Below are positions 4,042 to 24,200 of a DNA stretch of 24,425 nt, one piece after another (within the stretch, counting starts at the first letter, position 1; each line of letters starts with the position of its first letter). The notes beneath the pieces were generated by a model, which did no database searches, was not told where the DNA came from, and saw only the letters and a list, made by a program, of their open reading frames with translations. Position numbers and translations under genes: made by a program. The stretch spans positions 1 to 24,425 of IMG/VR virus record IMGVR_UViG_3300010299_000062. One strand, written 5' to 3'. This DNA comes from a virus.

Positions 4042-4727
4042 TACAGAAGGGTTTTGAGAGCAAAATTCAAATTCAGGACATTATTGAAAATCAAATACCT
4101 GAATTTGTCACTTCAGATAATCCAAAATTTACTGAATTTTTAAGGCAATATTACGTAAGTCTTGAAAATCAGGGATCTACTTATGATATCATAGATAATT
4201 TAAGTGATTATGTAAAATTAGATAATTTTAGACCCGAAATTGTAAGTGGATCTATTATTTTAAATAGCGATATTTCCTCCACTGATACCGATATTACCGT
4301 AAGTAATACAAAAGGATTTCCTGAGAAGTATGGTCTGATTAAAATAGGCGATGAAATTATTACATATAAATCTAAAAACTCAACTCAGTTTTTGGATTGT
4401 GTAAGAGGATTTAGTGGTGTTGATAAGTATGGAAAGACATTATCATTTTTAGATACTAATGCTAATTCTCATACTAGTGGTTCAAGTGTCGAAAACTTAA
4501 GTGTATTATTTTTAAAAGAATTTTACAATAAAATAAAGTTCACTTTACTTCCAGAGTTAGAATCAACATCTTTACATAAGGATGTTAATCTAAATTTATT
4601 TTTAGCTAACTCTAGTAGTTTTTATAGATCCAAAGGTAGTAATGAATCTATAATAATGCTTTTTAAAGCATTATATAATATTGAACCAATAGTTGTTGAC
4701 TTAGAAAAGTATCTAGTAAAATCATCT
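4038..4727 (+). other. gp7-like N-terminal domain of the giant protein
   Basis: Residues 1-230 contain the helical opening (FESKIQIQDIIENQIPEFV, 6-24), FTEFLRQYYVSLENQG (31-46) and YRSKGSNESIIMLFKALYN (196-214). The last block resembles a conserved stretch of phage wedge proteins that attach to gp6. A small beta module with IKIGDEIITY (99-108) and an RG..H pattern is inserted between them. This is the part most likely to hold the protein in the wedge. Confidence 0.6.
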
Positions 4728-7700
4728 TCTGCAAACTATCTAAGAAGAAATGAGGTAATTTTCCAAACGGTATTTAATTCTTCTAATCTAGATCCTTTAA
4801 AATTAATTGGACAACAGATTTTTAAAAATGATAATTTAAGTTCATCAGCTCCAGTATCCGAAATTGAAATTTTAACCAGAGAAGGAAGGTCATATTTCAA
4901 ATTTTTATTCTTTATTGGCAATGACGAAAACACTTCAAGTCCTGTCGATAATTTTAACGTAACTCCATCATCAAAACTTGTAACCTCAATACAGGCATCT
5001 AATAATCAAACAACAATCACTTTAGACTCTACTGTTTCATTTAAAGACAGTGGCAGTGTTTTTTATGTGGATAGCAATGGTAATAAAATAGTAATTTTTT
5101 ATAGAGAAAAGACTCTTAATCAACTATTAGGTTGCTACACTAGTGGATATGAGTATATAAATGTAAATATACCAAAATCTTCAATCGTTTACGATAACGA
5201 CTTATATTTTGGATATGAAAATGGAGATACTGAGAAGAAAGTAGAATTAATATTAGTATCAAATTCAACATCTGTAAATGTAAATTATACTGATAAAAAA
5301 TATTCTTTTGCAAAAGATGAGATTGGGTATGTAACATCTTTTGGAAATCCTTTAGACACAAATGAATTAAATAATTTATCTAAGATTGAGAGAATTTCAA
5401 AGTCTTTATATTATAATACATCAATTAGGTATCAAGTTTCATCTTTTAGTGGAAGAACCTTGATTTTAAAATCAAGGATTGATGATCCCTCTGTTCTTAG
5501 AGTAGGTGATGCTGTAGAATTTTTAGAACGAAATACTGAAATTAATGCTAGAGAAATAAATCAGAATATTTCATCAACAATTGAAGAATTGACTTCTGCA
5601 GTTATTTTAAGAATATTGGGTCTATCGGATGGAACTTATCAAGTAGAAATAGATCAATCTACTTCCAAATTAAGTAGCAATAAAACTTATGATATTCGTA
5701 GATTGGTAAAAACCACATTAAGTAATAATATTCCTTTTGAATATGAAAATTTAACAACAGATATTATAAACACATACACTGATGATGACAATTCTCTTTA
5801 TATTGCATCAAATTCATTACCATCATATTTGATAGATAACAACATATTTGAATATCAAATAGAATCGATAAGTGATTATCTTGAAAATAAATTTAAATGG
5901 TCTTCAATTTTACTATCTACCTCAACTGTAAATGGTCGTGTTGTTTATCCATCTTTAATTAGTGGTGATATCATATACTATGATTACACAGGGTCTCCAA
6001 TAGATGGATTAAGAAGAGGAATTTATTATATTGAAATAGATGCAAATTCTAAAAATAAATTTAAACTTTACAACTCAAGAACTTCAATAGGTAGTTCTAA
6101 TTATGTTTTAATTAATAGTGATACAATTCCAACTGGAACACATACTATTACATTATATGCACAAAAATCTGATTCCAAAAAACTATCATCTAAAAAATTA
6201 TTTAAAAAAGTATTTAATGATAGCACCGAAATAAATGGAAATTATGAAATTGGTACCAAACCTGTAGGAATTTTGGCTAACGGAGTTGAGATTATTAGTC
6301 CAAACTCTTCAGATGGAATTTATTATGGACCTATTGAATCTGTTACGGTTATCAGTTCCGGAAAAAATTATGATATTTTAAATCCTCCACAATTAAGATT
6401 CGAATCTGGCAATGCCAAGATAGAACCTGTTCTACATGGAAATATATCAGAAGTTGTAGTTGATCAGCAATTATTTGATATTAAAGAACCAGTTAATTTA
6501 ACCGTGTCTGGTGGAAATTCAAAAAATGTAGTTTTAAAGCCAATTGTATTGTTAGATAGTAGGTCTGTCACTTTTAATGCTAGAGGTGTAGACCAAGGTG
6601 GAGGTTTAGATCCTTCTGCGGATACAATAACTTTCATAGATGATCATAATTTTTATAATGGTCAAAAAGTGTATTATGATATTAATGATATCAATAATGC
6701 ACCAATTGGAATTGGATTTTTTGATACTGAAGGACCATCATACACTAGTCTATCAAACAACTCTTCATTTTTTGTTGATGTAGTAAACTCTCGGACAGTA
6801 AGATTATATCCATCAAAATTTGATTATAGTGCAGGAATTAATACAGTCGGATTAGGTACTGAAGGAAATACCGGTATCCATAAATTTAGAACAGAACCAC
6901 AAAAGAAACTGAAAAAAGTTGTAGTAGAAAATCAGGGAAGTGGTTTCACCTACAGGAAATTGCCAGTATCACAATCCGCAATTTCAACCACTCATAATCT
7001 TGTAACTTTTAAAAACCACGGATTTGAAAGTGGTGAATTAGTATCTTACACCTATGAAACAAGTCCTATAGAAGGACTATCAAATCAAAATCAATATTAT
7101 ATACTTAAATATAATAACGATTCATTCCGCTTGTGTAATGCTGGAATTGGTGGAACTATTAAAACAAATTATGATCAAGAAAATTATGTTAAATTTAATT
7201 CTACTGGTTCTGGATATCAGTATTTTAAGTATCCAGATATTGAAATAAATGTAACATACCAAAGTATAGTCGATAATTCTCAAAACACAATTGTTGCTAC
7301 TCCAAAAATTTATGGTGGTATAATAGACACATATGTCTACGAAAAAGGTTCTGATTATGGATCAACAATTTTAAATGTTGAGAAAAAACCAAAAGTCAAT
7401 GTTTTATCTGGAAAAGATGGATTGATAAAAGTTATAACTGAAAGTGGAAAAATAATAAGAGCATTAGTTTTATACTCAGGATCCGATTATTATTCAGTCC
7501 CCGATCTAGAAATAACTGATCCAACTGGTAGTGGAGCAATTTTAAGGGCGGAAATATTAAATGGAAAACTTTTTGGAGTACAAATTATTGACCAAGGAAT
7601 AAATTATAGTAAAGACCTAACCGAAGTTACTATAAAAAATAGGGGAAATGGTGCAATTTTTTCTGCAAATATTAGAAAATTGTCTGTAGATAATTCTTTC

Positions 7701-10700
7701 AAGTATGGAAAACAATATCAATCTAACAGAGAACCATCATATGATATTATAGAAACTTCTGAAGGGAAACTAACATATTCAATTATTGGATATAGACAAG
7801 AATTATCAAACTTTTTTAATATAACACCTTCAAGTCATTCTCCAATTATTGGTGTTGCATATGATGGAAATCCAATATATGGACCTTATGGATTTTCGGA
7901 TCCAAATAATTTTCAGTCAAGTTTTAAATTAATGGAGAGTGGGTATTCTTTAGATCCAAATAGTGTGACGAATAGACCATCTCTATCTCTTTTCCAATCT
8001 GGTTACTTTACGGAAGATTATAAATTCACTAATACTGGAGATCTTGATGAATTTAACGGTCGTTTCTGCAAAACACCAGAATTTCCTAACGGAACCTACG
8101 CTTACTTTGCAACTACAAAAACTACTGGTTCAGAGATTATAGCTAAATATCCTTATTTTATTAAAAACTATAGAAATAGACCAGTAACAGAAAATATTGA
8201 TGGATCATTAAATCAATCTTCAAGTGTTATTGGTTTAAAGAGAAATACTACACCATACATGGAATCTAATACAGATTCTAAATACGATTTCTTTGTTACA
8301 CCAAAATCTACAGTTACAAACACTATACAGGTGGATAGTGTAACAAGAGGATCTGTAGATAATATTAAAATTCAAAATGGCGGGTCTAATTTTAAAGTTG
8401 GGGATAATCTTAATTTTAAATCTACCGATTCTGGATATGGTTTAGATGTAAAAGTTACTAAAGTTTTAGGAAAAAATATTACAGACCTATCAACTGAATA
8501 TAAATTCTACCAATCAAAATTATATAAGATAGGAGATTATGAATATGAGATAAAGATATTGCCATCTCATGAAATTTTAAACAACTCAAAGGTTAGTATA
8601 TCTGGACTTAATACATCTTTTCAGTTTTTAAAAAACTTGCATGTTGCCAATGTAAAAGAATTTTCTACTAACTTGACAGAATCTTTGTCCTTAGGATCAA
8701 ATTCTGTAGGTGTTGTAACTGACATTGTAGTTGACAACTTACCTTCACAAATATCTATTGGTGGATCTATTAGAGTAGATAATGGATCTGTTGAAAATTA
8801 TTATGAAGTTTTAAATTTTTATGAAAAGTATAGTACAATTAGATGTTTAAAGACAATTGGTAGCGACCAAAACATAGAATCTGGTTCTAAAGTAACTATA
8901 TTACCAACAAGGTTTACAATTAATACAAAAACTAAATCTGAAAGTACACCATCAAAAGAAAATAATTTAATATATTTCAATCCATCTGAAGTTGTTGCAA
9001 TTTCTACTCTCAGTGGAGCAACCGTCCCATTATCATTTAAAATAGGTTCTTCTAGTGTAAATGTAGAAATTCCATCAAAATCAATTTATATCCCCAATCA
9101 TAATTTAAACAATGGGCAAAAGGTAACTTTCAATAGATCTGACACTAATGTGGGAGCATTTATTGTAAGAGATTCGGAATATAGAGCTTTTTCCATTTTT
9201 GAGTCTGGACAAACTCAAAGAAATTTGTGGATTATTAAAAAGTCTGATGATGTGATCGGAATTGCAACAAGATCGGTAGATGTATATGGAACAGATGGTC
9301 TTGCTTTTTATGATGAGACAATTACAGTATATAGTGATACATATAAAGATTATTATATTGATCCTGGTTATTCCGAAACTACATGTCAGATAGATCAAAT
9401 AATATCTACAGTGTCTGTATCAACTTCACATTTATTATCAAATGATGATGAAGTTGAATTAAATGCAAAATCCAATACTACTGTAGGATTTGGGCAAACT
9501 GATTTCATAAAATTAAGATATTTAAGTAGTATTGATGATATTTCAGTCAAAGATTATGTTTTTTCCCCTACTGATGTAGATTTGACGGAAAATAAAATTA
9601 ATATCGTAAATCACCAACTGAACAGTGGTGATGCAGTTTATTATATTTCAACATCAGTTATTGGAGGAATAACGACTGGAATCTACTATGTAAATAGGGA
9701 AGATCCCCATAATATAAAATTATCTGAAACATATAAAAATTCCACCTCAAATACACCAATTACTTTAGATCTTACATCATTACCATTTTACGGAACTGAA
9801 CCACAAAACTTATATTTAATAAGTCCTAAAATAGACGTTCCTAGAAATTCAGATCTAAAATTTGATGTTAGCGATAGTTCTCTAGATGGATATAATTTAG
9901 ATTTTTATGAAGACCAAAACTTTAGTAAAAAATATATATCTTCTGGATCAGATTTGAACTTTGCAGTTTCGGTTGGTGTAGGCACAGTGACCTTAAAGTA
10001 TAGTGATAATACACCAAGTGAACTATATTATGCTATAAGTGATTCGGAAAAAGTAATAAAATCTAAAGTCAGTTACTCACATCCAAATAAAATAAATTAT
10101 GTTGATAGTGTTTATAATAATAAATTTACTATATTTAATTCTTTAGATACGAAGTTTTCATTTTATTTGGATCAGGTACCAGAAGCACTAAATTACACAC
10201 AAAGTAATACCGATACATTAGAATACTATACATCGTCTCCTACAGCAACAGGATCTATCATCTCTACTAATATAATAAATGGTGGATATCTGTACACTAA
10301 TACTCCAAATTATAGTGGTAGTAATAGTTTAAATGGGAGTTCGGAAATTATTATTGCAGAATCTAATTCTATTGGAAAATTAAATTCAACTCTATTTAAA
10401 AATACTGGGTTTGAATATTCTTCTGATACAACATTATCTCCAAAAATAGAATTTTCAAAGCAGATTGATATTATTGATAGTCAATATGTTACTAACGTTG
10501 AAGTGGTATCTGGTGGGTATGGTTTTTATTATGAACCAAATCTGGTAATTGTAGAATCTAATAGTGGAAAATTAGTTAATAATGGTTCAGTATCTGCTAC
10601 ACTAAGTGATGGATCACAGGGCACAAAATCAATTGTTTCAGTAGAAATAAACACGCCAATAACTGGATTAGCAAATACACCAGTAGAAATTCGTAGTATT

Positions 10701-13700
10701 AACAATACAAACTCGATAAGAATTGACAAAGTAACATCTTCCACTTCTGGCATTTTAACTTGCACTTTAAGTACTCCAACTATTGGATATCCTAGTAATA
10801 ATCAACCATTTGCAAATGGATCTGAAGTTTTTGTGGAGAATATACAAAATGTTGAAAACACTGGAATAGGTTTTAATTCTGCAAATCATGGATATTCATT
10901 CTTTAAAGTAATAAGTTATTCGAATACAATTCCAGCTACGATAGAATTGGAAATACCAAAATTGTTTGGTAATCCTGGAGTTGCTCTGACAACACAACTT
11001 AATACATATGCTTCTGTATCTTCAAAAGAAAATTATCCAATTTTCAAAGTAACGCAGGATTATGCAGACTTTTTAGAAGGAGAAACTATTTTAGTTTTAG
11101 ATAATAATGAAGTTATTGAAACAGATTTGATTATAGTAAAAGCACAACAAAATAAGTTAAAATATTTTGGATCATATAGATTAAAAGTTGGACAAACACT
11201 TAGAGGTTCTTATAGTGGATTTGAATGTAAAATTCAATCACTTTCAGAAGTCGATTGTAGTTTGGAAGTTTCACATCAGAAAAAAGTAGATGTTGGTTGG
11301 TTGGATGACACTGGAATGACTAGTGTAGATACTCAATATTTACCTGATAACGATTATTATCAAAATTTATCATATACAATTAAAAGTGAAAAATCGTGGT
11401 TAGATGTATCATCTACGGTGAATTCAATTGTTCACCCATCAGGAACTAAAAATTTTGCAGATATGCAATTAAGTTCTAATGCAACGTCTAGAGTATCTAT
11501 TGGTACAGTTGGAGATGCTAAACTAGAATCTGTCACATCACTATTTTCTTCTGGCAATACGCAAGAAGTAAGAAATTTTGAAATGGTTGTTGATGGTAAT
11601 GTTATAAATGACTCGTTCACAAATGAAATTAAATTTAATTCACTCAAATTAACATCATTTAACTTAGTTGAATCAAATAGAGCTTTGGAGTTTGATGACA
11701 TATCATACTTATTCGCATCTAAAGATGATCTTGAATCGTTTGAAACTCTTAGATTATTAAAATCTAACAATAAACCATATATAAAATATTTAATACAAGG
11801 AAAAAATCTAGTGGCTCCCAATATTATTGGCGATCCAATAGATGAGATTCAACTTACAGAAATTATTGTATTATCTGATGTTAAAAGTATCACAAATGCC
11901 GAAAAATATTCTTTAAGTAATACTGGAATTGCAACAGGTACAATTTCAAAATATTTTGATGTTTATGCGGATATGGATAATTCTTCTGATATTAAGTTAT
12001 ATTTTAATCCCGCAGATACATTCAACAGCGACTATGAAATTAAAGTTATTTCTACCACTTTTGATGAATCTTTAGTGACAGAAGGAACTAAAGAGTATGA
12101 TCATGTTCAAACAAAATCTAAAGTAGATATTATTTCTAATAATAGTTCTACAAATTTACTTTCCTTAAGTACATTAACAAAATCTTCTTTTATTTCGGAA
12201 ATTGCAATACAAAATATTGATCCCAATAATGACATAACCGAATACGTTGAAATTTACTGTGCTACAGATGGTACGAATCAAGTTTATGCAGATTATGTAC
12301 TCGATACTAGAAAAAATGATGGGTCTATACAATCTTTGGTTAATATAACACCCTCGATTGATACATCTAATAATGTTTTAAGATTAACTTGTTCAAATAA
12401 TCAAAATAATACTGTAAAAATTATCTCCAATACTATTGTATTTGATTCTTCTCCAACAGTAGGTCTTGGATCTACTTCCCAGTTTAAATTGAATAATCAA
12501 AGTGATACCACATGTAGAACAGCGCTAATAGAATCTAGGTATGATGAAATTGTTGGTTTAACTACAATAAGATCATATGATGTGAACTTATTTACATCAT
12601 TTAAATCTATAATTCAAGTTGTCTCTGGAAATGTAGTATCACTTCATCATGTTTTAGGTGTTCATGATGAAAATAATTCCTACATAACTGAAGCTCCTTT
12701 AATCAGTACCAAAGGAACTGGAGGTATTAATAATGTAGTAGGTATATTCACATCTAACATAGAAGATAATAATTTTAATTTAGCATTTATACCATATTCT
12801 GAGACTGATACAATAAAAATAAGTCAATATAATAAAGTTTTCTATAAGGTATATGATACCAATGTGAATCCCGAACCTTTAATTAATAATCCATTAAGAG
12901 AATCTTTCACGAAAAATTTATATTTTGGCAAAAATAGTCCTTATACAAATAGAACATCTTTCCCTGCAAACTACAAAGGGACACCAATTTTTGCAAAGAA
13001 ATTTGATCCTCAAGTTTCTTCAATTTTAGACCCATCTACAGGAATATTTACTATTCCAAACCATTTCTTTAGTGATAGAGAGAGATTAGTTTATGAATCC
13101 GGTTCAACTTTTGTTGGATTAGGTGCTAGTGATATGCACATTAACCCATCTACAGATATTTCTGGAATAACTACAGATATACTACCAAAAGATGTATTTG
13201 CTATAAAAATTAGTGATAGTCAGTTTAAACTTGCTACAAATGAGTCTGATGCAGAAAATTCTATTGGAGTTACATTTACTTACACTGGAACTGGTAATGC
13301 CCACAAATTGACGATGGCAAAATTAGATTCCAAATCTCTTGTTTCTGTAGATAACTTGGTTCAGTATCCACTCACTTCAACTAACATAAGTCACGCTACT
13401 GCTACTAATGTAGGTGTTGCCGACACTTATATCAGTCTAACAGGAATATCATCAATTTTTCCAACAGATACTATCAAAATAAATGATGAATATATTCGTA
13501 TTATTGATGTTGGTCGTGCTGAACAAATTGATGGTCCAATAACATACATATCAGGAAATTATGAACTAGTTGAAGTTGAAAGAGGTGCTGTTGGATCTAC
13601 TGCATCTAGTCATTTGCAAGGAGATACTGTTGATGTATATAAAGGTTCATTTAGAATTAGTGGTGAAAATATAGATTTCACCGCGCCTCCAAAAGGAGCA

Positions 13701-16646
13701 CCTGGTGGAATTGATGAATTAAATGAGAGCAATCTTCCAAGAATTAGATCTAAATTTAATGCTAGAGCATTTTTAAGAAAAAATTATGAAAGTAATTCTA
13801 TTTTTGACGATTTTTCTGGTAATTTCGATGGTATTACTAGATCGTTTGAATTGACTAGATTGGGAGTATCAACAATAGGTTTTAATACTAATTCTACTAA
13901 TCCACTTGCTGTTTCTTCTTCTGATCCAGAAACTGTTGGTGCGGGAAATGGTATGTTGTTTATAAATGGATTGTTCCAAAAACCACAGACATTAAATGCA
14001 GATACTTACAATTTCTTTATAACTCAAGATGCTGCTGCTGGTGTAAGTACGGTCACATTTACTGGAAATGATCTATTGAATCCTACAACAAATGAATACG
14101 ATGTAAATACTAATCAAATTCCTAGAGGTGGTTTGATTGTTTCATTAGGATCTACTGCAGGATTGGGGTATGCACCACTGTATGGAGCATCAGTATACCT
14201 TAGAACAGATGTTAATGGAGGTATTGGTGAGGTTATAGGTATTGGAACAACAGGAACAGCATTCCAAGGTATTACAACAGCAGACTATAATAATACTACT
14301 GGTTTGTTGCAAATAACTACATCTACACAAAATATCGGAATTTTGACTGCCTTTGATACTCGTTTTGTTAAATTGGTGGGATTGTCATTTACATGCTCCG
14401 GATATGAAAATGATGGAAGTAGTTTAGATTATCCAACTCACGATAATCCTCTCTCCATTGTCGGAATTTTTACAGATTCCTTTATAGTTGATGTTGGTGT
14501 TTCTACAATTACACATCACTACGTTGGTAATGGAACTGTGTTCCCTTATTATGATAGATTGACCTTTGGATCTGGTTATAATGAATACAAGTATCCAGAT
14601 CAAGGAAGACAACCTATTTCGTATGAATTAGACTATGATTCTCATAGTGGTTCAGATGCAGAATTTAATATTACGGTAGTTGAAGGTGGAGAATTGGATA
14701 TTCAAGTTACATCTCCTGGAGATGGATATGTAAATCCACGTTTAAAAATAGAATCACCAGATTATGAGAATTTGGAAGTTGTTGGTATTAGTAGACTTGG
14801 CATTGGTGCTACCACTGAAACTGGTGTTGGTATGTTAATCAATGTTGAAATTGGTTCAAATACAGACCAAAATGCTCAACCCGTTGGTTTAGGATCAACA
14901 TTCTTTAACGTTAGTAATTTTAAGATTACACGTTCTGGGTACAAGTTTAAAGTTGGTGACGTATTTACTCCTGTTGGTTTAGTAACAGCTAAAGGATACA
15001 GTGAACCAATAGATCAATTTAAATTAGTTGTTTTACAAACATTCAATGATAACTGTTCAGTATTTCAATTAGGGGAATTTGATTACTTAGATTCTATAAA
15101 ATCATATCAAAATGGCAGTAGAACAGTGTTCCCATTATCATACGATTCTAGAAGAATTAGTTTTGAGACCGATTCAACAAAACAAGAGTCTGCTTTAATT
15201 AATATGGATTCATTGCTAGTAATCTTCATTAATGGTGTAATCCAAGTTCCTGGAGAATCTTATGTATTTGATGGAGGTGCTTCTATAACATTTAGTGATC
15301 CTCCACTAGAAAGTGATATAATAGAGATGTTCTTCTACGTTGGCACCAGAGGAATTGATTCATCTCTTAATATTGTAGATGAAACAATTAAAATAGGTGA
15401 TGAATTAAAGATTCAAAATCTTCCCTCAAATACAAACACTCTAGATCAACGAAGAAGGACAGTTCATGATCTTGCATCTTCTGCAGTAACAAGAACTAAC
15501 CCATACACTCGTGAGGGTATTAGTGATTCTATTTACAGACCTGTTACGTGGATAAAACAAACTCAGGACATTGTTATTGATCAAATAACTTATACTAAAG
15601 TAAGAGATTCTTTAGAATCTCAAGTATATCCAACTGCAAGAATAATATATGATTTAAATTCTACAGATAATTATGTTTTTGTTGATAATGCAGATTTATT
15701 TGACTATGAAAATAATAGTTCTAAAAACAATTTAATTATTTTACCAAATCAAGAAGCAGTTGGTGGTGCTGCAACTGCCATAGTTGATTCTAATGGATCA
15801 ATTAGTAGCATAGATGTCACTAACCCAGGTCAAGGATACAATTCCCAACCTTTGGTTAAAATAGCAAATCCAATTATTGGAATTGGAACTAATAGATCTT
15901 GGTATAATGTTGGAATTGGAACCACCGCAGATGTTGGAATTGGAACTACAGCAACAGCTTCAGCATCTTTACTACCCAATTCAAAACTTGATACTATAAG
16001 TGTTACAAATCCTGGATCTGGATACACAACATCAAATCCACCTCAAGTTATTGTAGAAGAACCAGATATAGTATTCGAAGAAGTTTTATTTGTAGATACT
16101 GTTCAAGGATTTAGTGGAATTATTGTTGGTATAGGTACAACAGTAGGAGATACTGACCTTGGCATTGAGTTTGAAATTAGATCTACAAGTCGTCCTGCAG
16201 ATGATGGATATGCCGATTTACTTCCTGGGTATCCAATTTACATATTCAACACTTCTTGTGGTGAAGGACTAACATCAATTGATCATGATGATACTGAAAT
16301 AGTTGGAATTTCTACTCAATTTGTAGACAATATTTACATTATTAAACAGATAACAACTACAGATAGTAATACTGGAATTATAACTTGCAATATTGCAAGC
16401 GATACAAATCATGTTGGAATAGCAAGTACGGGAACATATATTAATCCAGTAGGTCATTTTTCATGGGGTAAATTGAGTGGATTTAATAGAAGTAACAATC
16501 CAATTTCTATAGGTGTTACTGGTAATGTTGTCTCAGGATTATCCACATATCCAGAGATAAGAAGAACAGGATTTAAATCTTCTAAATTGAGAGATGCTGA
16601 TGCCAAAGGATTGCGTAATAGTGGTTCTCTAGACAAGACCATATAA
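4038..16646 (+). CDS. Giant 4202-residue mosaic baseplate protein in the gp7 position
   Basis: This is one open frame of 12.6 kb. In T4 the gene after 6 is 7 (1032 residues, peripheral wedge protein). The first ~230 residues fit a gp7-like role: IPEFVTSDNPKFTEFLRQYY (20-39) and YRSKGSNESIIMLFKALYN (196-214) resemble the KG-x-E-S-x-x-LFRxLF block of such proteins. The rest is beta-rich and modular. A glycine-aromatic module (V..GxGY..P.v.i) occurs near 768, 960, 1095, 1139, 1178, 1441, 2076, 2151, 3554, 3628, 3923 and 3984. An NH-x-x-x-x-G-x-x-V-x-Y module lies near 641, 869, 993, 1687, 1858 and 3007. A GDE/RG/H module lies near 94-150 and 3141-3195. FINGV-Q modules lie near 3305 and 3729, and a YHYH-like domain at 1266-1380. 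No signal peptide, membrane span or long coiled coil was seen. The ATG overlaps the gp6 stop. It is probably a fusion of a wedge core with surface or host-glycan-facing modules. Identity with gp7 is by position and N-terminus only. Confidence 0.82.
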   Translation: MIQKGFESKIQIQDIIENQIPEFVTSDNPKFTEFLRQYYVSLENQGSTYDIIDNLSDYVKLDNFRPEIVSGSIILNSDISSTDTDITVSNTKGFPEKYGLIKIGDEIITYKSKNSTQFLDCVRGFSGVDKYGKTLSFLDTNANSHTSGSSVENLSVLFLKEFYNKIKFTLLPELESTSLHKDVNLNLFLANSSSFYRSKGSNESIIMLFKALYNIEPIVVDLEKYLVKSSSANYLRRNEVIFQTVFNSSNLDPLKLIGQQIFKNDNLSSSAPVSEIEILTREGRSYFKFLFFIGNDENTSSPVDNFNVTPSSKLVTSIQASNNQTTITLDSTVSFKDSGSVFYVDSNGNKIVIFYREKTLNQLLGCYTSGYEYINVNIPKSSIVYDNDLYFGYENGDTEKKVELILVSNSTSVNVNYTDKKYSFAKDEIGYVTSFGNPLDTNELNNLSKIERISKSLYYNTSIRYQVSSFSGRTLILKSRIDDPSVLRVGDAVEFLERNTEINAREINQNISSTIEELTSAVILRILGLSDGTYQVEIDQSTSKLSSNKTYDIRRLVKTTLSNNIPFEYENLTTDIINTYTDDDNSLYIASNSLPSYLIDNNIFEYQIESISDYLENKFKWSSILLSTSTVNGRVVYPSLISGDIIYYDYTGSPIDGLRRGIYYIEIDANSKNKFKLYNSRTSIGSSNYVLINSDTIPTGTHTITLYAQKSDSKKLSSKKLFKKVFNDSTEINGNYEIGTKPVGILANGVEIISPNSSDGIYYGPIESVTVISSGKNYDILNPPQLRFESGNAKIEPVLHGNISEVVVDQQLFDIKEPVNLTVSGGNSKNVVLKPIVLLDSRSVTFNARGVDQGGGLDPSADTITFIDDHNFYNGQKVYYDINDINNAPIGIGFFDTEGPSYTSLSNNSSFFVDVVNSRTVRLYPSKFDYSAGINTVGLGTEGNTGIHKFRTEPQKKLKKVVVENQGSGFTYRKLPVSQSAISTTHNLVTFKNHGFESGELVSYTYETSPIEGLSNQNQYYILKYNNDSFRLCNAGIGGTIKTNYDQENYVKFNSTGSGYQYFKYPDIEINVTYQSIVDNSQNTIVATPKIYGGIIDTYVYEKGSDYGSTILNVEKKPKVNVLSGKDGLIKVITESGKIIRALVLYSGSDYYSVPDLEITDPTGSGAILRAEILNGKLFGVQIIDQGINYSKDLTEVTIKNRGNGAIFSANIRKLSVDNSFKYGKQYQSNREPSYDIIETSEGKLTYSIIGYRQELSNFFNITPSSHSPIIGVAYDGNPIYGPYGFSDPNNFQSSFKLMESGYSLDPNSVTNRPSLSLFQSGYFTEDYKFTNTGDLDEFNGRFCKTPEFPNGTYAYFATTKTTGSEIIAKYPYFIKNYRNRPVTENIDGSLNQSSSVIGLKRNTTPYMESNTDSKYDFFVTPKSTVTNTIQVDSVTRGSVDNIKIQNGGSNFKVGDNLNFKSTDSGYGLDVKVTKVLGKNITDLSTEYKFYQSKLYKIGDYEYEIKILPSHEILNNSKVSISGLNTSFQFLKNLHVANVKEFSTNLTESLSLGSNSVGVVTDIVVDNLPSQISIGGSIRVDNGSVENYYEVLNFYEKYSTIRCLKTIGSDQNIESGSKVTILPTRFTINTKTKSESTPSKENNLIYFNPSEVVAISTLSGATVPLSFKIGSSSVNVEIPSKSIYIPNHNLNNGQKVTFNRSDTNVGAFIVRDSEYRAFSIFESGQTQRNLWIIKKSDDVIGIATRSVDVYGTDGLAFYDETITVYSDTYKDYYIDPGYSETTCQIDQIISTVSVSTSHLLSNDDEVELNAKSNTTVGFGQTDFIKLRYLSSIDDISVKDYVFSPTDVDLTENKINIVNHQLNSGDAVYYISTSVIGGITTGIYYVNREDPHNIKLSETYKNSTSNTPITLDLTSLPFYGTEPQNLYLISPKIDVPRNSDLKFDVSDSSLDGYNLDFYEDQNFSKKYISSGSDLNFAVSVGVGTVTLKYSDNTPSELYYAISDSEKVIKSKVSYSHPNKINYVDSVYNNKFTIFNSLDTKFSFYLDQVPEALNYTQSNTDTLEYYTSSPTATGSIISTNIINGGYLYTNTPNYSGSNSLNGSSEIIIAESNSIGKLNSTLFKNTGFEYSSDTTLSPKIEFSKQIDIIDSQYVTNVEVVSGGYGFYYEPNLVIVESNSGKLVNNGSVSATLSDGSQGTKSIVSVEINTPITGLANTPVEIRSINNTNSIRIDKVTSSTSGILTCTLSTPTIGYPSNNQPFANGSEVFVENIQNVENTGIGFNSANHGYSFFKVISYSNTIPATIELEIPKLFGNPGVALTTQLNTYASVSSKENYPIFKVTQDYADFLEGETILVLDNNEVIETDLIIVKAQQNKLKYFGSYRLKVGQTLRGSYSGFECKIQSLSEVDCSLEVSHQKKVDVGWLDDTGMTSVDTQYLPDNDYYQNLSYTIKSEKSWLDVSSTVNSIVHPSGTKNFADMQLSSNATSRVSIGTVGDAKLESVTSLFSSGNTQEVRNFEMVVDGNVINDSFTNEIKFNSLKLTSFNLVESNRALEFDDISYLFASKDDLESFETLRLLKSNNKPYIKYLIQGKNLVAPNIIGDPIDEIQLTEIIVLSDVKSITNAEKYSLSNTGIATGTISKYFDVYADMDNSSDIKLYFNPADTFNSDYEIKVISTTFDESLVTEGTKEYDHVQTKSKVDIISNNSSTNLLSLSTLTKSSFISEIAIQNIDPNNDITEYVEIYCATDGTNQVYADYVLDTRKNDGSIQSLVNITPSIDTSNNVLRLTCSNNQNNTVKIISNTIVFDSSPTVGLGSTSQFKLNNQSDTTCRTALIESRYDEIVGLTTIRSYDVNLFTSFKSIIQVVSGNVVSLHHVLGVHDENNSYITEAPLISTKGTGGINNVVGIFTSNIEDNNFNLAFIPYSETDTIKISQYNKVFYKVYDTNVNPEPLINNPLRESFTKNLYFGKNSPYTNRTSFPANYKGTPIFAKKFDPQVSSILDPSTGIFTIPNHFFSDRERLVYESGSTFVGLGASDMHINPSTDISGITTDILPKDVFAIKISDSQFKLATNESDAENSIGVTFTYTGTGNAHKLTMAKLDSKSLVSVDNLVQYPLTSTNISHATATNVGVADTYISLTGISSIFPTDTIKINDEYIRIIDVGRAEQIDGPITYISGNYELVEVERGAVGSTASSHLQGDTVDVYKGSFRISGENIDFTAPPKGAPGGIDELNESNLPRIRSKFNARAFLRKNYESNSIFDDFSGNFDGITRSFELTRLGVSTIGFNTNSTNPLAVSSSDPETVGAGNGMLFINGLFQKPQTLNADTYNFFITQDAAAGVSTVTFTGNDLLNPTTNEYDVNTNQIPRGGLIVSLGSTAGLGYAPLYGASVYLRTDVNGGIGEVIGIGTTGTAFQGITTADYNNTTGLLQITTSTQNIGILTAFDTRFVKLVGLSFTCSGYENDGSSLDYPTHDNPLSIVGIFTDSFIVDVGVSTITHHYVGNGTVFPYYDRLTFGSGYNEYKYPDQGRQPISYELDYDSHSGSDAEFNITVVEGGELDIQVTSPGDGYVNPRLKIESPDYENLEVVGISRLGIGATTETGVGMLINVEIGSNTDQNAQPVGLGSTFFNVSNFKITRSGYKFKVGDVFTPVGLVTAKGYSEPIDQFKLVVLQTFNDNCSVFQLGEFDYLDSIKSYQNGSRTVFPLSYDSRRISFETDSTKQESALINMDSLLVIFINGVIQVPGESYVFDGGASITFSDPPLESDIIEMFFYVGTRGIDSSLNIVDETIKIGDELKIQNLPSNTNTLDQRRRTVHDLASSAVTRTNPYTREGISDSIYRPVTWIKQTQDIVIDQITYTKVRDSLESQVYPTARIIYDLNSTDNYVFVDNADLFDYENNSSKNNLIILPNQEAVGGAATAIVDSNGSISSIDVTNPGQGYNSQPLVKIANPIIGIGTNRSWYNVGIGTTADVGIGTTATASASLLPNSKLDTISVTNPGSGYTTSNPPQVIVEEPDIVFEEVLFVDTVQGFSGIIVGIGTTVGDTDLGIEFEIRSTSRPADDGYADLLPGYPIYIFNTSCGEGLTSIDHDDTEIVGISTQFVDNIYIIKQITTTDSNTGIITCNIASDTNHVGIASTGTYINPVGHFSWGKLSGFNRSNNPISIGVTGNVVSGLSTYPEIRRTGFKSSKLRDADAKGLRNSGSLDKTI
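7320..7640 (+). repeat. Three consecutive glycine-aromatic modules
   Basis: Within residues ~1095-1201 of the giant protein, three copies follow one another at about 40-residue spacing: IDTYVYEKGSDYGS, IIRALVLYSGSDYYSVPDLEI and LFGVQIIDQGINYSKD. Each has a beta strand, a G-S/I-x-Y turn and a second strand, with a glycine-alanine link (GSGAIL, GNGAIF) between copies. Regular spacing suggests a stacked beta structure. The copies are diverged at DNA level. Confidence 0.65.
7833..8177 (+). other. YHYH-like domain inside the giant protein
   Basis: Residues 1266-1380 read SPIIGVAYDGNPIYGPYGF, then SGYFTEDYKFTNTGDLDEFN, GRFCKTPEFPNGTYAYFATT and YPYFIKNYRNRP. The order DG-PIYGPYG, LDE-NGR, G-T-Y-x-Y-x-AT, PY matches the YHYH family (Pfam PF14240 from memory), which is also inserted in other cyanophage tail proteins. 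In cellular members the eponymous motif is YHYH; here it is YAYF, so both histidines are lost. The role in phages is unknown. Confidence 0.72.
15804..16064 (+). repeat. Paired glycine-aromatic modules flanking VGIGTT repeats
   Basis: Residues ~3923-4009 of the giant protein hold ISSIDVTNPGQGYNSQPLVK and LDTISVTNPGSGYTTSNPP, two close copies 61 residues apart. Between them are three GIGT units at bases 15876, 15909 and 15933. The last two units are a 24-base tandem (GTTGGAATTGGAAC core), which is the clearest DNA-level repeat in the gene. Such glycine-rich blocks are frequent in cyanophage tail proteins, and tandem repeats are sites where unit number can change. Confidence 0.7.
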
Positions 16647-16649
16647 ATA
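16642..16649 (+). promoter_or_regulatory. T4-type late promoter for gp8
   Basis: TATAAATA is a perfect match to the T4 late-promoter octamer. It overlaps the stop codon of the giant gene and lies 27 bases before the gp8 ATG, the same geometry as the element before gp25 (28 bases). The following bases (ATAAATAAT, one base, GAAAAAA) are shared with it. It would let gp8 and the next gene be transcribed independently of the 12.6-kb gene upstream. Confidence 0.75.
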
Positions 16650-16668
16650 ATAGAAAAAATGGTTTAAA

Positions 16669-18255
16669 ATGCCTGCTTTTGTAACGGAACAATTTAGAAT
16701 TTTAAATACTACCAATTTTGTAAATTCTATTGATAATGGTACTGATAATTATTACATATTTGTAGGTCTACCAAATCCTACTACTGCTGGATTTGGTAGG
16801 TCATCAACATGGGATATTGGAGACCCAAATGTGACAAATCCAGTAATTCCAGATCCTACGGACAATATTGATTACTTGCCTCATTATGCAAATACAATGC
16901 TTTATGGTAGAAAAGTTACTCCATCTAACGTAAGACGTTGTATTAGAAGAATACCTTGGACTAAGGGTATCAAATATGATATGTATAGGCACGACTATAG
17001 TTCAACAAATCTTTCTCCAAATAGTAATAGACCAAGATTATATGATTCGGATTATTATGTAATTAACAGTCAATATCAAGTATATATTTGTATATCCAAT
17101 GGATCTACTGGTACAGATCCTACAGGAAATGAGTCTTTAGATGAACCAACATTTACTGATTTGGAACCATCAAAAGCAGGAACACAAGGAGATGGTTATA
17201 TTTGGAAATATCTTTTTAGTGTATTGCCTTCCGATATTGTTAAATTTGATTCAACAGAATTCATTCCACTTCCAAATGACTGGGATGATACTTCTACAAA
17301 TGCTCAAGTTCAAGCTATAAGAAATAATGCCGACTCTAGGATTAATAAAAATCAAATTAAAAAGGTATTCATAGAAAGATCTGGACCCAGTGGTGCATAT
17401 TTGTCTGGGGAAGTTGACATTATAGGTGATGGTAGCGGAGGAAGAGTATATATTACTGTGAATGAGTCTGGACAAATAGAAGATGCTACCGTAACTAGTG
17501 GAGGAAGTGGATATACTTATGCAATCGTTGATTTGGAACCACTTAGAACTACCGATACTTTTTCATCAGATCCGGCAAAATTAATACCAATTATTCCACC
17601 ATCATTTGGGCATGGTTATGATCTGTATAGAGAACTAGGTGCAGAAAAAGTATTCATGTATGTAAGAATGGATGATTCTACAAAGGATTTCCCAACAGAT
17701 ACAAAATTTGCACAGATAGGAGTACTAAAAAATCCCCTAAAAAATGTATCAAATTCTAATTTTACTGACGATAGTTTTAATGCCACATATTCGTTGAAAG
17801 TAACTTTACCCCAAGGAAGTGTATCACCAGTAATTGGAACAAAAATTAGACAAAAAGTACCAAATGGTGAAGCAGAAGCATATATTGCTTCTTATGATTC
17901 TGTAACTGGAGTACTAAAATATTTTCAAGATAGATCATTACAATATTCTTTATCAACCAATGATCAATCTGATTATGCTGGAATTTCATCATCCGGAAAA
18001 CTTTTCCAATTTGAAGGATCAAATCCGATAAATGGAGATGCTAATGATTTCGTTGCTTATATTGACACATCTTTCGATGGATCGGAATTACAATTAACTG
18101 ATAGAGTTGTTAATTTAGGTTCTTCATTCATATCTGGCGTTTCTCAACCCGAAATAAATAAAACATCTGGAGATATTATTTTTATTGACAATAGAGCTTT
18201 GGTAACAAGGAACTCTAGACAAAAAGAAGATATTAAAATCGTTCTAGAATTTTAA
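16669..18255 (+). CDS. 8: Baseplate wedge subunit gp8
   Basis: The product has 528 residues; T4 gp8 has 334. gp8 dimers join gp7, gp10 and gp6 in the wedge. The opening (MPAFVTEQFRILNTTNFVNS) and the segments YHDYSS-like YRHDYSSTNL (106-115), FYVIN-like DYYVINSQYQVYICIS (128-143) and GDGYIWKYLFSVLP (174-187) are characteristic of cyanophage and T4-type gp8. An additional beta module around 255-300 (GDGSGGRVYITVN then DATVTSGGSGYTYAIVDLEP) repeats the glycine-aromatic unit seen in the giant neighbour and helps explain the larger size. The C-terminus (IIFIDNRALVTR ... EDIKIVLEF) is the usual gp8 end. There is no Shine-Dalgarno; the ATG follows TTTAAA. The next gene starts three bases after the stop. 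Confidence 0.9.
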   Translation: MPAFVTEQFRILNTTNFVNSIDNGTDNYYIFVGLPNPTTAGFGRSSTWDIGDPNVTNPVIPDPTDNIDYLPHYANTMLYGRKVTPSNVRRCIRRIPWTKGIKYDMYRHDYSSTNLSPNSNRPRLYDSDYYVINSQYQVYICISNGSTGTDPTGNESLDEPTFTDLEPSKAGTQGDGYIWKYLFSVLPSDIVKFDSTEFIPLPNDWDDTSTNAQVQAIRNNADSRINKNQIKKVFIERSGPSGAYLSGEVDIIGDGSGGRVYITVNESGQIEDATVTSGGSGYTYAIVDLEPLRTTDTFSSDPAKLIPIIPPSFGHGYDLYRELGAEKVFMYVRMDDSTKDFPTDTKFAQIGVLKNPLKNVSNSNFTDDSFNATYSLKVTLPQGSVSPVIGTKIRQKVPNGEAEAYIASYDSVTGVLKYFQDRSLQYSLSTNDQSDYAGISSSGKLFQFEGSNPINGDANDFVAYIDTSFDGSELQLTDRVVNLGSSFISGVSQPEINKTSGDIIFIDNRALVTRNSRQKEDIKIVLEF

Positions 18256-18258
18256 AAA

Positions 18259-21200
18259 ATGGCACAAAAAACAAATTTTAACATAAGCCCCTATTTTGAT
18301 GATTATGATAGTGGAAAGAATTTTCATAAGGTACTTTTCACACCAGGAAAATCAATACAGACTAGGGAATTAAATACAATTCAATCTATATTACAAAATC
18401 AAATTGAGTCTTTTGGAAGTCATGTTTTCAAAGAAGGAACACCAGTTGCGGGCGGAGAAATATCTTATGATCCTTCCTATAATGCAATAAAACTTAATAA
18501 TGTTTCTTTTGGAGTAGATATTAGTTTATATATTGAAAAATATGAAGGAAAACAGATTAAAGGTCAAGTATCAGGAATAACTGCAAAGGTTCAAAAAGTT
18601 GTTCTTACAAATACTAGTGGTGTAGATTATATTACTTTATATGTTAAGTATCTTGAATCTGGAGAAGAATTTAATGGTGGAGTTTTTATAGATGGTGAAT
18701 CTTTACTATCAACAGAAGCAATAACATATGGAATAAACAATACAGTAATTGCATCTGGGTCACCATTTGCATCATTGATTGCAGAAGAATCTACAGATAT
18801 TGGAACTGCAGTTTCTATAACTGAAGGTATCTATTACATCAGAGGAAACTTTGTACGTGTAGATAAAGACACACTGATACTTGATTACTATACAACAAAT
18901 TCTTCATACAGAGTTGGTCTAAGTGTTAATGAGGAAATTATATCTGCAAAGCAAGATAATACTCTCTTCGATAATGCAAAAGGATTTACTAATTTTGCTG
19001 CCCCAGGGGCAGATAGATTTAAAATTTCAACTAAATTATCTAAAAAATCTTTAAATGATTTTAATGATACTAATTTTGTAGAACTATTGAGAGTTCAAAA
19101 TGGTATATTAAAGCAAATTCAAACTAATACTGAATATAACAAGGTAAGAGACTACATTGCAAAAAGAACATTTGATGAATCTGGAAATTACACCGTAAAT
19201 CCATTTTCATTATCTTTGAATAACTCTCTGAATAATCTGAAAGGTAATAATGGAAAATATTTCTTTGGTGAACTTACAGCAAAAGGTAATACACCATCCG
19301 ATGATTTGATGTGTGTAACCTTAGGTCCTGGAAAAGCTTATGTAAATGGTTATGATATTAATAAACCAACAACCACAGTATTGGATGTTCAGAAACCAAG
19401 AGAAACTGAAAAAGTAACAGGATCTCAAGTTCCATTTACATTAGGAAATGTTTTAAGACTCAATAACGTTTACGGTGGCGTTACAAATAAAAATGTAGTG
19501 TCTTTTTATAATGGGAGAAGAAGTGGTAGCAGTCCCACAGGTGGAAAAGTTGGTGAGGCAAGAGCATATTTGTGCAAATTAACGGATGCTTCATATACAG
19601 GAGCATCCTCAAATTGGGACCTATATCTTTATGATCCAACTTTTTTCACAGAATTAACTATAAATGAATCTGTCAATAGTGCAGAAGTAACTGCAGGAAC
19701 GAGAATAGAAGGTTCTTCTAGTGGAGCAGTAGGATATTCAGTTGCTTCAGGAATTGGAACTGTAGTCACAGTTAGAATGCAGTCTGGAAAATTTTTACAA
19801 AATGAATCTATATCAGTTGGTATTTCCACTATTTCTAGAAGTATAACTGATGTGTTGTCTTTTAATCAGAATGACATTAAATCAGTTTTTGATGAGACTG
19901 TAACACCAGTATTTGCGGCAGACACATACTTAGATAAATCACTTGCAAATGGATTTAGTTCCGATGATACTATTTACATTGATACAAACTTTAATCTAAA
20001 GGCTAATAAACCTTTGACTGGAATAACAACCTCAACAGTTGTGAGGTTTTTAGAACCAAATCAAACTACAGAAAAATTTGCTCGTGTAGATAGTATTAAT
20101 GCTGATGGATTAAGTGGTAGATTGGAAGCAGTATCAGCAGTATCGGGTGTGACCCTAACTAGCGCTCCAGGATCTAATATTCAAGTACCCTTCATTGTTG
20201 GAACAAGTAAAATCAGAAGACCAAATTCTGCATATTTGTTCTCTATTTTATCAAATAATAATGTATCTAGTGTAGAACTTAGTAATTCTAGGTTATCCTT
20301 TTCCGCGCAAGCAATTATATCACAATCTGTAACACAAAATGGAACTTTGGAATTGGGAGTTGCTGCATTTGATATCTATTCAGATACAACAAATGTGTCT
20401 TTTGACACATCCAAGGACATCGAAAAATTCTCCATTCACTATAGTAATGGAACTATAGAAGCATTAAAAGATGATCAAATTGAATATTCGAATAATAACA
20501 AAACAATAAAATTTAACAATATATGTAAGGGTGGAAGTAAGACAGTATATTTGGTAAACGCATCATTTGTTAAAACTGGAATACAAAGTAAAACAAAAGT
20601 ACATAAAAAAAGTGAGCAATTAGATATATCTTTATCTAGCAATCAACAATCAGGATCTAGTGAGGGTTCATCTTTAAATGATGGATTAACATTCAATCGT
20701 TATTATGGTTTGAGAGTTCAAGATAAAGAAATTTGTCTAAGATATCCAGATGTATCAAGAATTTTAGCAGTATATGAATCTATAGATAGTAATGCACCGA
20801 CTCTAGATAGTATCACATTTTCACCATTATATTCGGTATCAACTACAGTATTAGTTGGAGAAGATGTATATGGTCTCGATTCTCAAAGTATTGCAAGGGT
20901 TGTAGAGGTAAATTCAAATACAGTCAAAATTGTATATTATGGTAATAAGCAATTTAATAATGGGGAGCAAGTTACATTCACTCAAACAAATCTAACTGCA
21001 CCTATACAGTCATTTAGTGCAGGATTATATAAAGATATAACTAAATCTTTTATTTTGGATAATGGTCAAAGAGATCAATATTATGATTTTTCAAGACTGA
21101 AGCGAATAAAGGGTCAAGCAGAACCAACCAAAAAATTAAAAGTTATATTCGATTATTATGATGTTTCTGGGTCCAATGTTGGTGAACTTTATAGTGTCTT

Positions 21201-24200
21201 AAGTTATCCAAATGATTCATATCAAAAAGATATTCCTAGAATAGGTTCTCTATCTGTTAGAGCCACTGACACTTTGGACTTTAGACCAAGAGTTTCGTAT
21301 TTTAGCGGCAATTCATCATCTCCGTTTGATTTTTCATCAAGAACATCAAGTTTTGGAAGTTCTCCAGATGTAATATTTACGCCAGATGAATCATCAATAA
21401 TAAATTATAATCATTATCTTGGAAGAGTTGATAAAGTTTACTTGGATCCTAATGGAGAATTTTCAATCGAAAAAGGAATATCCTCCAAAGAACCAAAAGG
21501 ACCAAAGATAAAAGAAGATAATTTACATATTGCCAATGTTTCAATGCCACCATATCTTTATGATATTGGTGATATAAGAATTGATATGATTGACAATAGA
21601 AGATATACGATGAGAGATATTGGAAAGATAGAAGATCGTGTAGAAACATTGGAACGTGTTACATCTCTTTCTTTACTTGAAAGTAGCGCAAAATCACTGC
21701 AAATTCAAGATGGAGATGGTCTAGAAAGATTTAAAACAGGATTTTTTGCCGATTCATTTAAAAATAGTTCTTTATTAGATACTCTTTCATCACTATCAAC
21801 CATTGAAAACGATGAATTAATTCCATTACAGTCAAATAGATCTATTGAGAATACTCCGATAACTAAAAATTCAATATCAGAAGTCAATTATGATACTACA
21901 GTTGATTATGAATTATTAGACAATAATGTTAAAAAAACGGGTAACGTAGTAACTTTAAATTACGATGAAGTTGATTGGATAGAGCAAAAATTAGCCACTA
22001 GAGTTGAAAATGTAAATCCATTCCATGTGATTCAATATGTTGGAGACATTAGATTATTCCCCTTCAGAGACATTTGGATTAGAACAGAGCAATTAGAAAA
22101 CAAAGTATTAACACAACAATTAACACTAGCATTAGAAACTCAAAGTCAAACTGAAAGATTGATTTTGAATAATCAGGATGTAACTACTGGTACAGGTTCT
22201 GCAGGATTAGGTGAAGGTGGAATTAGAGATACTTGGACTTCTTTAACTTTAACAGATGGAACTGAATCTGAACCAACGACTTCGGTTTCATCTGACACAT
22301 CATTATCAAGTACGAATGAAGTTTCATTTGTTGAGCAAATTCGTGATGAATACATGAGAAGTAGAAATACAGAATTTTCTTCTTCAAACTTAAAAGCATT
22401 TACTGAGTATTATGCTTCTCTAGATGGAGATAGTGGTATAAAAATTATACCAAAATTAATAGAAATTTCAAAAAATACGACGTTGACAGAACCTGGATCT
22501 ACAAATTCATTCCAAGTCGGGGAAATTATCTCTGTCGAGTCTAATGGAAAAATTATAATGAATTGCAGACTTGCAAATGCAAATCATAAGGGAGGACAAT
22601 ATAATAATCCAAACCTAACATATACTGTCAATCCATATAACAGAAGTGAGCAAGCACAAGAACTTTATAGTTCTCAAAGTCCTTATTTAAATATTGACAC
22701 TCATTCATTAGCAGAAAAATCTGCAGAGGCAGACGTAAGTGACAAAACCACATTTGTTGGTTATATTGAAAAAGGTGCAAAGATTTTTGGAAATACATCA
22801 AATGCTGTTGCTTATGTTAAAAATATAAGATTAATCACTGATAATTTTGGCGATCTTATTGGATGTTTCTTTGTAGATAATCCAAATAATTCTGGCCAAA
22901 TTAAGAGATTTGCAACTGGAGAAAAAACTTTTAAGTTAAGTAACACTGCAAATGCTAGCAACTCTTTAGTCAATGGTAGTACAGACTATTCATCGGCAGA
23001 AACTACATATGTATCTGAAGGTTCTGTTAACAAACTTCAAAATATTGAAAGAATAGTAGAATCTGGTGCTTCATTGACAACAACAAATAATGTTAGAATT
23101 AAACAATTAAATGCGATAAGAAATGAGAACATTTCTACTACTGAAATTCCAACACCAATAATTAACAATATTACACAAATAATTCAAAGACAAAGACATG
23201 CAGATCCATTAGCACAAACATTTTTAGTTGGTACTGCAAGAGGTCTTAATAGTGGATGGACCGATGATATGAATGGTGCATTCCTAACTGCTGTTGATCT
23301 TTTCTTTAAAAAAGTTGACAGTGGATCTGCGGCACTTACCGTCCAAATAAGAACATGTGAATTTGGAATTCCAACTTTAACAATGATTGGCGATCCTGTA
23401 ACTTTAAGACCATCTCAAATTAAGGTTTCTAATGATGCTTCTGTAGCAACAAAAGTTACTTTCCCATATCCAATATATTTGCCACCAAATCTTGAGTATG
23501 CAATAGTTTTAATGTCCCCAGAAAGTCAAGAATATGAAGTTTGGACTGCTAAAATGAGTGAAAAGACTATTGGTACAACGTCTTTACCTGATATCGAAAG
23601 TGTGAGGTATACTAGACAATTTGCTATCGGTAGTTTGTTTAAATCGCAAAATGGATCTACATGGACACCAGATCAAAATCAGGATTTAAAATTTAAATTA
23701 TACAAAGCATCATTTACATCTACGGAAGGTAAATTATATCTAGGAAATAATAAAACAAAACGTAGACAGTTGGGACCAAATCCTATAACAACATTACCCA
23801 AAAAACTCAAGGTAGTGTTAAGTGCTGCTATAACAGATTCTGGAGATATTGCAAAGTTAGTTTCTGGAAGAAAAGTTACAGATAATGCTAGCGTCTCTTT
23901 TGGCGCTCATGGATTTATATCTGCCACTGGCGGTCCAGTAAACACGGTAGGACTTCAAACTCCAGGAAGTAATTACAAACCAGACACTTATGCTAAGATA
24001 CCAACAACTGCAATTACTGGAAATGGATCTGGACTAGAATTAGGTTTTATTGTTAGTTCTAATGGTCAAATACCTTCCAGTATAACTATAAATGTTTCTG
24101 GAAACGGATATGCTGTTGGTGATGTAGTTGAAGTTGATACTAGTTCAATGGGATTCTCTGGATCTGGTGCAAGAATTACCATTACTAGTACAAACAATCA

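Follow-up and report, generated by a model that had tools for sequence, protein, structure and literature searches.

The DNA analysed here (the window) is a 24,425-base IMG/VR virus record (IMGVR_UViG_3300010299_000062) carrying a block of baseplate wedge genes from a T4-like cyanophage, and it raises the question of whether a short glycine-aromatic motif in three adjacent proteins, a giant gp7, gp8 and a VrlC/DUF4815 protein, is one and the same module, and if so what it does and how it came to be there. An earlier note made from the sequence had proposed a module common to these three non-homologous neighbours. The three proteins were shown to hold one homologous unit of about 39 residues, inserted in otherwise unrelated structural proteins. 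The best explanation overall, to which we assign a probability of roughly 0.65, is that two units together form a barrel akin to domain I of the T4 sheath protein gp18, grafted into these proteins as a docking knob.

The homology of the copies was established with profiles from which the protein to be found had been left out. A hidden Markov model (HMM) built from 13 units of gp7 only recovered gp8 at 17.6 bits (independent E-value, i-E, 6e-6), and likewise gp14, a Stenotrophomonas sheath and the gp7 of other phages; the best decoys for this model (reversed and shuffled sequences, six times the size of the search set) reached 12.7 and then 8.4 bits. Using a profile of 33 units from proteins other than VrlC, all of the GD-type described below, VrlC residues 1940-1980 were recovered at 21.8 bits (decoy maximum 6.8), their match to the profile of the other subtype (P-type) being weak (4.9 bits). 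The check that had been set beforehand, recovery of the gp8 and DUF4815 copies by a profile, therefore came out in favour of a common module. A tight regular expression (V.V..GxGY) matched gp7 12 times, against a mean of 2.3 and a maximum of 8 in shuffled sequences, in line with the dozen or so giant-protein copies counted earlier; by profile, gp7 holds about 10 confident and 3-5 weaker units. A chance origin of the motif was ruled out by the shuffled sequences and the decoys.

The consensus of the iterated profile constructed without VrlC sequences was SNGSITSVTITNGGSGYTSGPTVTI, after which came a turn rich in G and then a third strand, GtGAtAtAvV. The V-x5-G-x-G-Y stretch from which the module was originally recognised is thus genuine, but it makes up only the first third of a unit whose third strand reads GxGAxAxAxV. 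Tandem copies are mostly 38-42 residues apart and usually paired. There are two subtypes, the P-type and the GD-type (GxGYxVGDxL), which are homologous by hhalign (probability 96.8, E 2.2e-10). The host proteins (lengths in amino acids, aa) and their units are as follows; residue numbers refer to the protein, coordinates to the window.

4038..16646, + strand: giant gp7 baseplate wedge protein (4202 aa), with most of the units here; flanked by gp6 and gp8, which is the T4 arrangement, and annotated as gp7 in P-HM2; phrog_2885 E=0
6321..6437, + strand: gp7 unit 762-800 (GKNY); HMM 15.0 bits, orthologous to S-SRM01 731
6438..6572, + strand: gp7 degenerate partner unit 801-845 without GxGY (GNISEVVVD...NLTVSGG...VVLKP), inferred by sequence inspection; predicted strands 815-824 and 832-840
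6897..7016, + strand: gp7 weak unit 954-993 (GSGF); 5.1 bits; across 46 homologues the signature G is conserved at 0.93 and the F at 0.85
7167..7286, + strand: gp7 unit 1044-1083 (GSGY); 13.8 bits, no variation of G and Y across 46 homologues
7308..7439, + strand: gp7 unit 1091-1134 (GSDY); neither G nor Y varies among 46 homologues; the orthologue in S-SRM01 scores 11.9 bits
7440..7556, + strand: gp7 unit 1135-1173 (GSDY), first of a clear pair; 12.2 bits
7557..7676, + strand: gp7 unit 1174-1213 (GINY), second of the pair; 11.1 bits
8343..8477, + strand: gp7 GD-type unit 1436-1480 (GSNFKVGD); 19.8 bits, weak overlap with Pfam Gp18_dom_I (E 0.87)
10245..10361, + strand: gp7 weak unit 2070-2108 (GYLY); 8.8 bits
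10476..10607, + strand: gp7 unit 2147-2190 (GYGF); 18.0 bits
14529..14645, + strand: gp7 weak unit 3498-3536 (GSGYNEYKYPD); seed only, not recovered by the iterated profile
14679..14807, + strand: gp7 unit 3548-3590 (GDGY); 11.1 bits, orthologous to S-SRM01 3353
14898..15017, + strand: gp7 weak GD-type unit 3621-3660 (GYKFKVGD); seed only, GD-type motif repeated in homologues
15789..15911, + strand: gp7 unit 3918-3958 (GQGY); 28.1 bits, the highest in the window
15975..16097, + strand: gp7 unit 3980-4020 (GSGY); 19.3 bits
16669..18255, + strand: gp8 baseplate wedge protein, into which a module pair is inserted; Pfam Phage-Gp8 3e-11, AlphaFold2 (AF2) model against T4 gp8 Z 17.1
17350..17466, + strand: gp8 unit 1, 228-266, variant GPSGAY; aligned to the S-SRM01 gp8 224 unit (20.3 bits), predicted local distance difference test (pLDDT) about 93
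17467..17538, + strand: gp8 unit 2, 267-290 (GSGYTY); 21.8 bits, G278, G279 and Y282 invariant in 42 homologues
18259-24425, + strand: VrlC/DUF4815 protein with an open end at the window edge; PF16075 E 7.6e-67
23923..24060, + strand: VrlC unit 1, 1889-1934 (GSNYKPD); nearest unit is the positional orthologue in S-SRM01 VrlC
24061..24198, + strand: VrlC unit 2, 1935-1980, GD-type (GNGYAVGD); 21.8 bits with the VrlC-free profile

Two copies in the DUF4815 protein had been predicted and were found, in VrlC 1889-1934 and 1935-1980. In gp8, where a single copy had been counted, there are two, the GPSGAY unit having been overlooked; gp8 orthologues show two clear units matching this pair, which sits between the parts aligned to positions 211 and 264 of T4 gp8. 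In the modelled gp7 segment (46 homologues, about 45% overall identity) the signature G was conserved at 0.93-1.00 and the Y/F at 0.70-1.00, four of its six units being invariant or nearly so at both positions. Comparison by hhalign of the P-type pair profile (A1), which includes the gp7 pair 1135-1213, with the gp7 homologue alignment (A3) returned that pair (probability 98.8, E 4.9e-17).

The module is not limited to the three baseplate proteins named in the earlier note. A search with a 43-unit profile gave 17 matches in S-SRM01, 31 in S-H38, 35 in P-HM2, two in Sinorhizobium phage phiN3, four in IME-SM1 and none in T4, the copies in isolates lying in gp7, gp8, the neck protein gp14, the hub lysozyme gp5, tail fibres and other structural open reading frames (ORFs). 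In viral contigs and bacterial genomes the pair was found in gp8, gp6, tail sheath and major tail or lambda-like tail-tube proteins, and unmistakable pairs lie inside the sheaths of Stenotrophomonas phage IME-SM1 (its sheath core 44.6% identical to that of T4), of a Bartonella genome and of locus L314. A few cellular proteins, for example SecD and subtilase, carry it too; the bacterial genomes were searched with one sheath pair as query, so that the bacterial list is a narrow sample. The units in bacterial proteins matching SecD, a TadE/G-like protein, a subtilase and DUF2589 were located at L277:1467-3245, L265:1026-3287, L280:1578-3836 and L262:1779-2630. By unit count, 86 ORFs held 2, 4 or 6 units, 31 held 1, 3, 5 or 7 and eight held at least 8, counts that favour pairing but are biased by the two-unit query. 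In L330:1-6300 a single open frame of at least 2100 aa holds 45 module units. Control ORFs of the cyanophage loci (gp6-like, gp13-like and others) gave no match at 11 bits, with only two in unclassified ORFs.

The module behaves as an insertable domain, since orthologues without it exist. T4 gp8 is one; the gp6 of the window aligns to that of locus L313 only up to residue 484, the L313 module (about 530-600) lying outside the alignment; and in the phiN3 sheath, which has no insert, the residues matching T4 92 and T4 190 adjoin. The VrlC copy (at about residue 1900-2000) stood above decoys in somewhat over half of 54 VrlC sequences, whereas the rest did not score above them.

Intragenomic copying had been proposed as the way of spread. 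As a recent process between genes it found no support in the nearest-relative tests: among 171 two-unit domains the nearest relative lay in the same ORF for 26, which reflects tandem duplication, and in another ORF of the same contig for none. Every window unit has its nearest relative in another genome; S-SRM01 has positional orthologues of 11 of these units, and in nine of the 11 cases the orthologue is also the nearest relative. The insertions are old and vertically inherited, spread between proteins having occurred long ago and multiplication within proteins by tandem duplication; ancient copying between genes may have taken place.

What the module looks like was examined with AF2 models of gp8 (42 sequences; mean pLDDT 81.5, about 93 for region 228-290) and of gp7 740-1216 (46 sequences; mean pLDDT 87.8), the latter with three predicted strands per unit. 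In the gp7 pair 1135-1213 these fall at 1138-1146, 1156-1160, 1168-1174, 1177-1185, 1196-1200 and 1204-1215. The models thus give good support to three-stranded units of which the pair would be the folding unit, a small beta-barrel. The structural comparison of the gp7 segment was dominated by other domains of that segment, so that the fold of the module rests on the gp8 model, and Foldseek of the gp7 segment against the PDB gave no match at E 0.001. The gp8 model (231-314) overlays T4 gp18 99-188 with Z 6.0 and a root mean square deviation of 3.0 Å over 73 residues; further matches were 3foa (Z 5.6) and a Klebsiella phage sheath (9ev2, Z 4.7). Among the structural matches listed, sheath proteins were the only ones to cover the gp8 module, T4 gp18 and 3foa ranking directly after the matches to whole gp8.

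Sequence profiles pointed to the same protein. With the GD-type profile (A6), which includes no T4 members, gp18 domain I was the best match in eight of 10 complete T4-like genomes (E 7.6e-7 to 0.008), and among PDB sequences each of the top six matches was a T4-like gp18, hit at one and the same position (E 0.01-0.03); the hhalign comparison bearing on this link (A5 against A6) gave a probability of 93.7 and E 1.9e-7. The P-type pair profile aligned in register with T4 domain I at a probability of only 11.6 (E 0.0026), the clear match coming from the GD-type, and in hhalign of T4 domain I against the whole gp8 (A2) and gp7 (A3) alignments the module was not picked. The module is therefore probably a distant homolog of T4 gp18 domain I without being a member of PF22639 (Gp18_dom_I), for which no match was found among the members of the pair alignment.

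Several points weigh against this kinship and the function derived from it. The second half of T4 domain I has no sequence match to the unit (hhalign score about 5), and T4 unit 1 as query scores 28.3 with A6, yet 22.3 with an unrelated gp8 window. No window protein attains the PF22639 gathering score of 27 bits, the scores being 14 bits for VrlC 1942-1987 (E 0.051) and 10 bits for gp7 1442-1476 (E 0.87). A Z of 6.0, which is below 8, could by itself reflect a common arrangement, and the pairing of the strands into one barrel was taken from DSSP and the overlay, not from coordinates. Finally, the signature G and Y may be kept for folding, and the T4 mutations described below could then act via misfolding.

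In T4, domain I of gp18 combines a six-stranded barrel with a helix. It interrupts domain II and protrudes, takes no part in gp18-gp18 contact, and binds both the baseplate and, in their retracted state, the long tail fibres; the mutations G106S, S175F and A178V inhibit fibre retraction (PMC3004832). The numbering of these mutations fits the sequence only if the initiator Met is uncounted; G106 is then the signature Gly of GSNY, and S175 and A178 fall in the SSSSGLAA stretch, which would correspond by position to the GxGA turn of unit 2. Because the T4 domain protrudes and holds retracted fibres, a docking knob is proposed for the cyanophage wedge, hub and neck. By analogy, the module pair would act as an outward-facing knob grafted into surface loops and would stay outside the assembly of its host protein. 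Its GxGY and GxGA loops would form a weak docking surface, the putative partners being fibres, adjacent components of the baseplate or sheath, or the cell envelope. Several such knobs would be held around the baseplate by giant gp7, acting as their scaffold. The T4 comparison thus suggests an insertable docking or adhesion domain. The shared binding role envisaged in the earlier note is accordingly plausible as far as protein docking goes, which the T4 analogy favours; glycan contact may also occur, but there is no evidence for it here.

Two other functions were weighed. That the units are a carbohydrate or cell-surface adhesion module, whose many copies on tail proteins raise avidity for the host envelope, much as has been suggested for phage Ig-like domains in a weak accessory capacity, appears rather unlikely. 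Units do occur in tail fibres, including a match in the Carin 1 phage tail-fibre chain (8ck1, E 2.5e-4), as well as in a handful of bacterial export-, pilus- or protease-type proteins, and extra sheath domains have been proposed to serve adhesion or virion stability (PMC9230969). However, none of the known carbohydrate-binding families gives a match to the units, the partners of the domain in T4 are phage proteins, and the gp14 copies in the neck are expected to lie far from the cell surface. That the units are inert spacers or stabilisers, an insertion-tolerant barrel that adds thickness or cohesion to the particle and persists through drift or size expansion, is unlikely as well. It would account for the strongly variable copy number (T4 gp18 only, 17 in S-SRM01, 31 in S-H38, 35 in P-HM2) and for the relatives without insert at many sites, but at most gp7 motif positions (46 homologues) and in gp8 unit 2 the signature G and Y show little or no variation, which folding alone would also explain. 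Convergence on glycine-aromatic beta-turns in unrelated beta-rich proteins, suggested by the shortness of the units and their richness in G and Y, is very improbable, since the profiles cross-recover the copies far beyond decoys, the third strand and constant spacing are common to them, positional orthologues are kept, and control ORFs of the cyanophage loci are free of matches at 11 bits.

Among the closest known systems is T4 gp18 domain I itself (PF22639; PDB 3fo8, 3foa), which shares the GxxYxVGD start, the insertion in a virion protein and the profile and fold matches, a two-part barrel being predicted for the module and an exposed position shared by analogy only. It differs in that T4 has one copy in one protein whereas cyanophages have tens in gp5, gp7, gp8, gp14, VrlC and fibres, in that the second half of the T4 domain has a helix and no visible unit signature, and in that the phage copies here are mostly of the GSGYTSxPTVTI type, out of reach of the curated Pfam model. 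Like phage Ig-like domains, the module is inserted in many virion proteins, patchy among orthologues and present in tandem copies, but it consists of three-strand units in pairs with another motif. Neither the window proteins nor the pair alignment nor the other host proteins gave a Pfam match to an Ig or Big family, and no Ig-like beta-sandwich appeared among the structural matches listed for the module, though such a fold may have been missed. In the Carin 1 chain (PDB 8ck1; same sequence filed as Dpo31/Dpo36) residues 444-505 match 1.5 units at the E-value given above, the protein being a fibre or tailspike and not a baseplate wedge.

No Pfam or NCBIfam family names the module at threshold, the T4 gp18 domain I model misses it, and a literature search found no paper describing the repeat (most subscription papers being outside the reach of the search). 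The module is a little-noticed building block of phage particles, in marine and other phages. A bolder picture, to which we give somewhat less than an even chance, is that of a second great promiscuous virion decoration family beside the Ig-like domains: a duplicated three-strand unit inserted independently in sheath, tail tube, gp5, gp6, gp7, gp8, gp14, VrlC and fibres of many phages, with T4 gp18 domain I as one worn relative and with fibre docking moved in cyanophages from the sheath to the baseplate and neck. A repeat of giant cyanophage proteins that had no name is hereby linked to a T4 domain of solved structure in which fibre-retraction mutations are mapped, which makes the function of the repeat testable, and a general docking domain would help to explain how large phages hold and deploy their fibres.

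The module also bears on annotation. PHROG families 438, 460, 701, 708, 2885, 4406 and 19630 cross-match each other's proteins via the module, and gp8, gp6 or sheath proteins therefore also score as 'head closure Hc2'; such module-driven matching among the families of gp7, gp8, gp14 and others can mislead automatic annotation.

The genes upstream of gp7 in the window are:

1707-2108: gp25
2110-4041: gp6

The gene order of the window is the same in S-SRM01 and P-HM2, its gp6-gp7-gp8 part also being as in T4, and S-SRM01 is the nearest isolate as judged by gp8 (57% identity). In the S-SRM01 record the labels of the terminase large subunit and the tail sheath appear swapped (L081:38218-39939 and L081:40002-41563), the ORF labelled sheath matching T4 gp17 (1e-117) and the next ORF matching T4 gp18 (1e-11).

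Giant gp7 further contains a YHYH domain (PF14240, E 1.6e-25; aa 1262-1362, window 7821-8123), which is also present in the giant protein of S-H38, and a second repeat, HxF..GxxVxY (e.g. HNFYNGQKVYY, HGFESGELVSY), with five occurrences against a shuffled mean of 0.007. The sites of this repeat lie at window positions 6645, 7017, 9099, 9429 and 9612 (gp7 aa 870, 994, 1688, 1798 and 1859), and for the domains around the first two the structural matches were the Uba1 FCCH barrel, at Z about 8.8, and the endosialidase of phi92, at Z 7.1.

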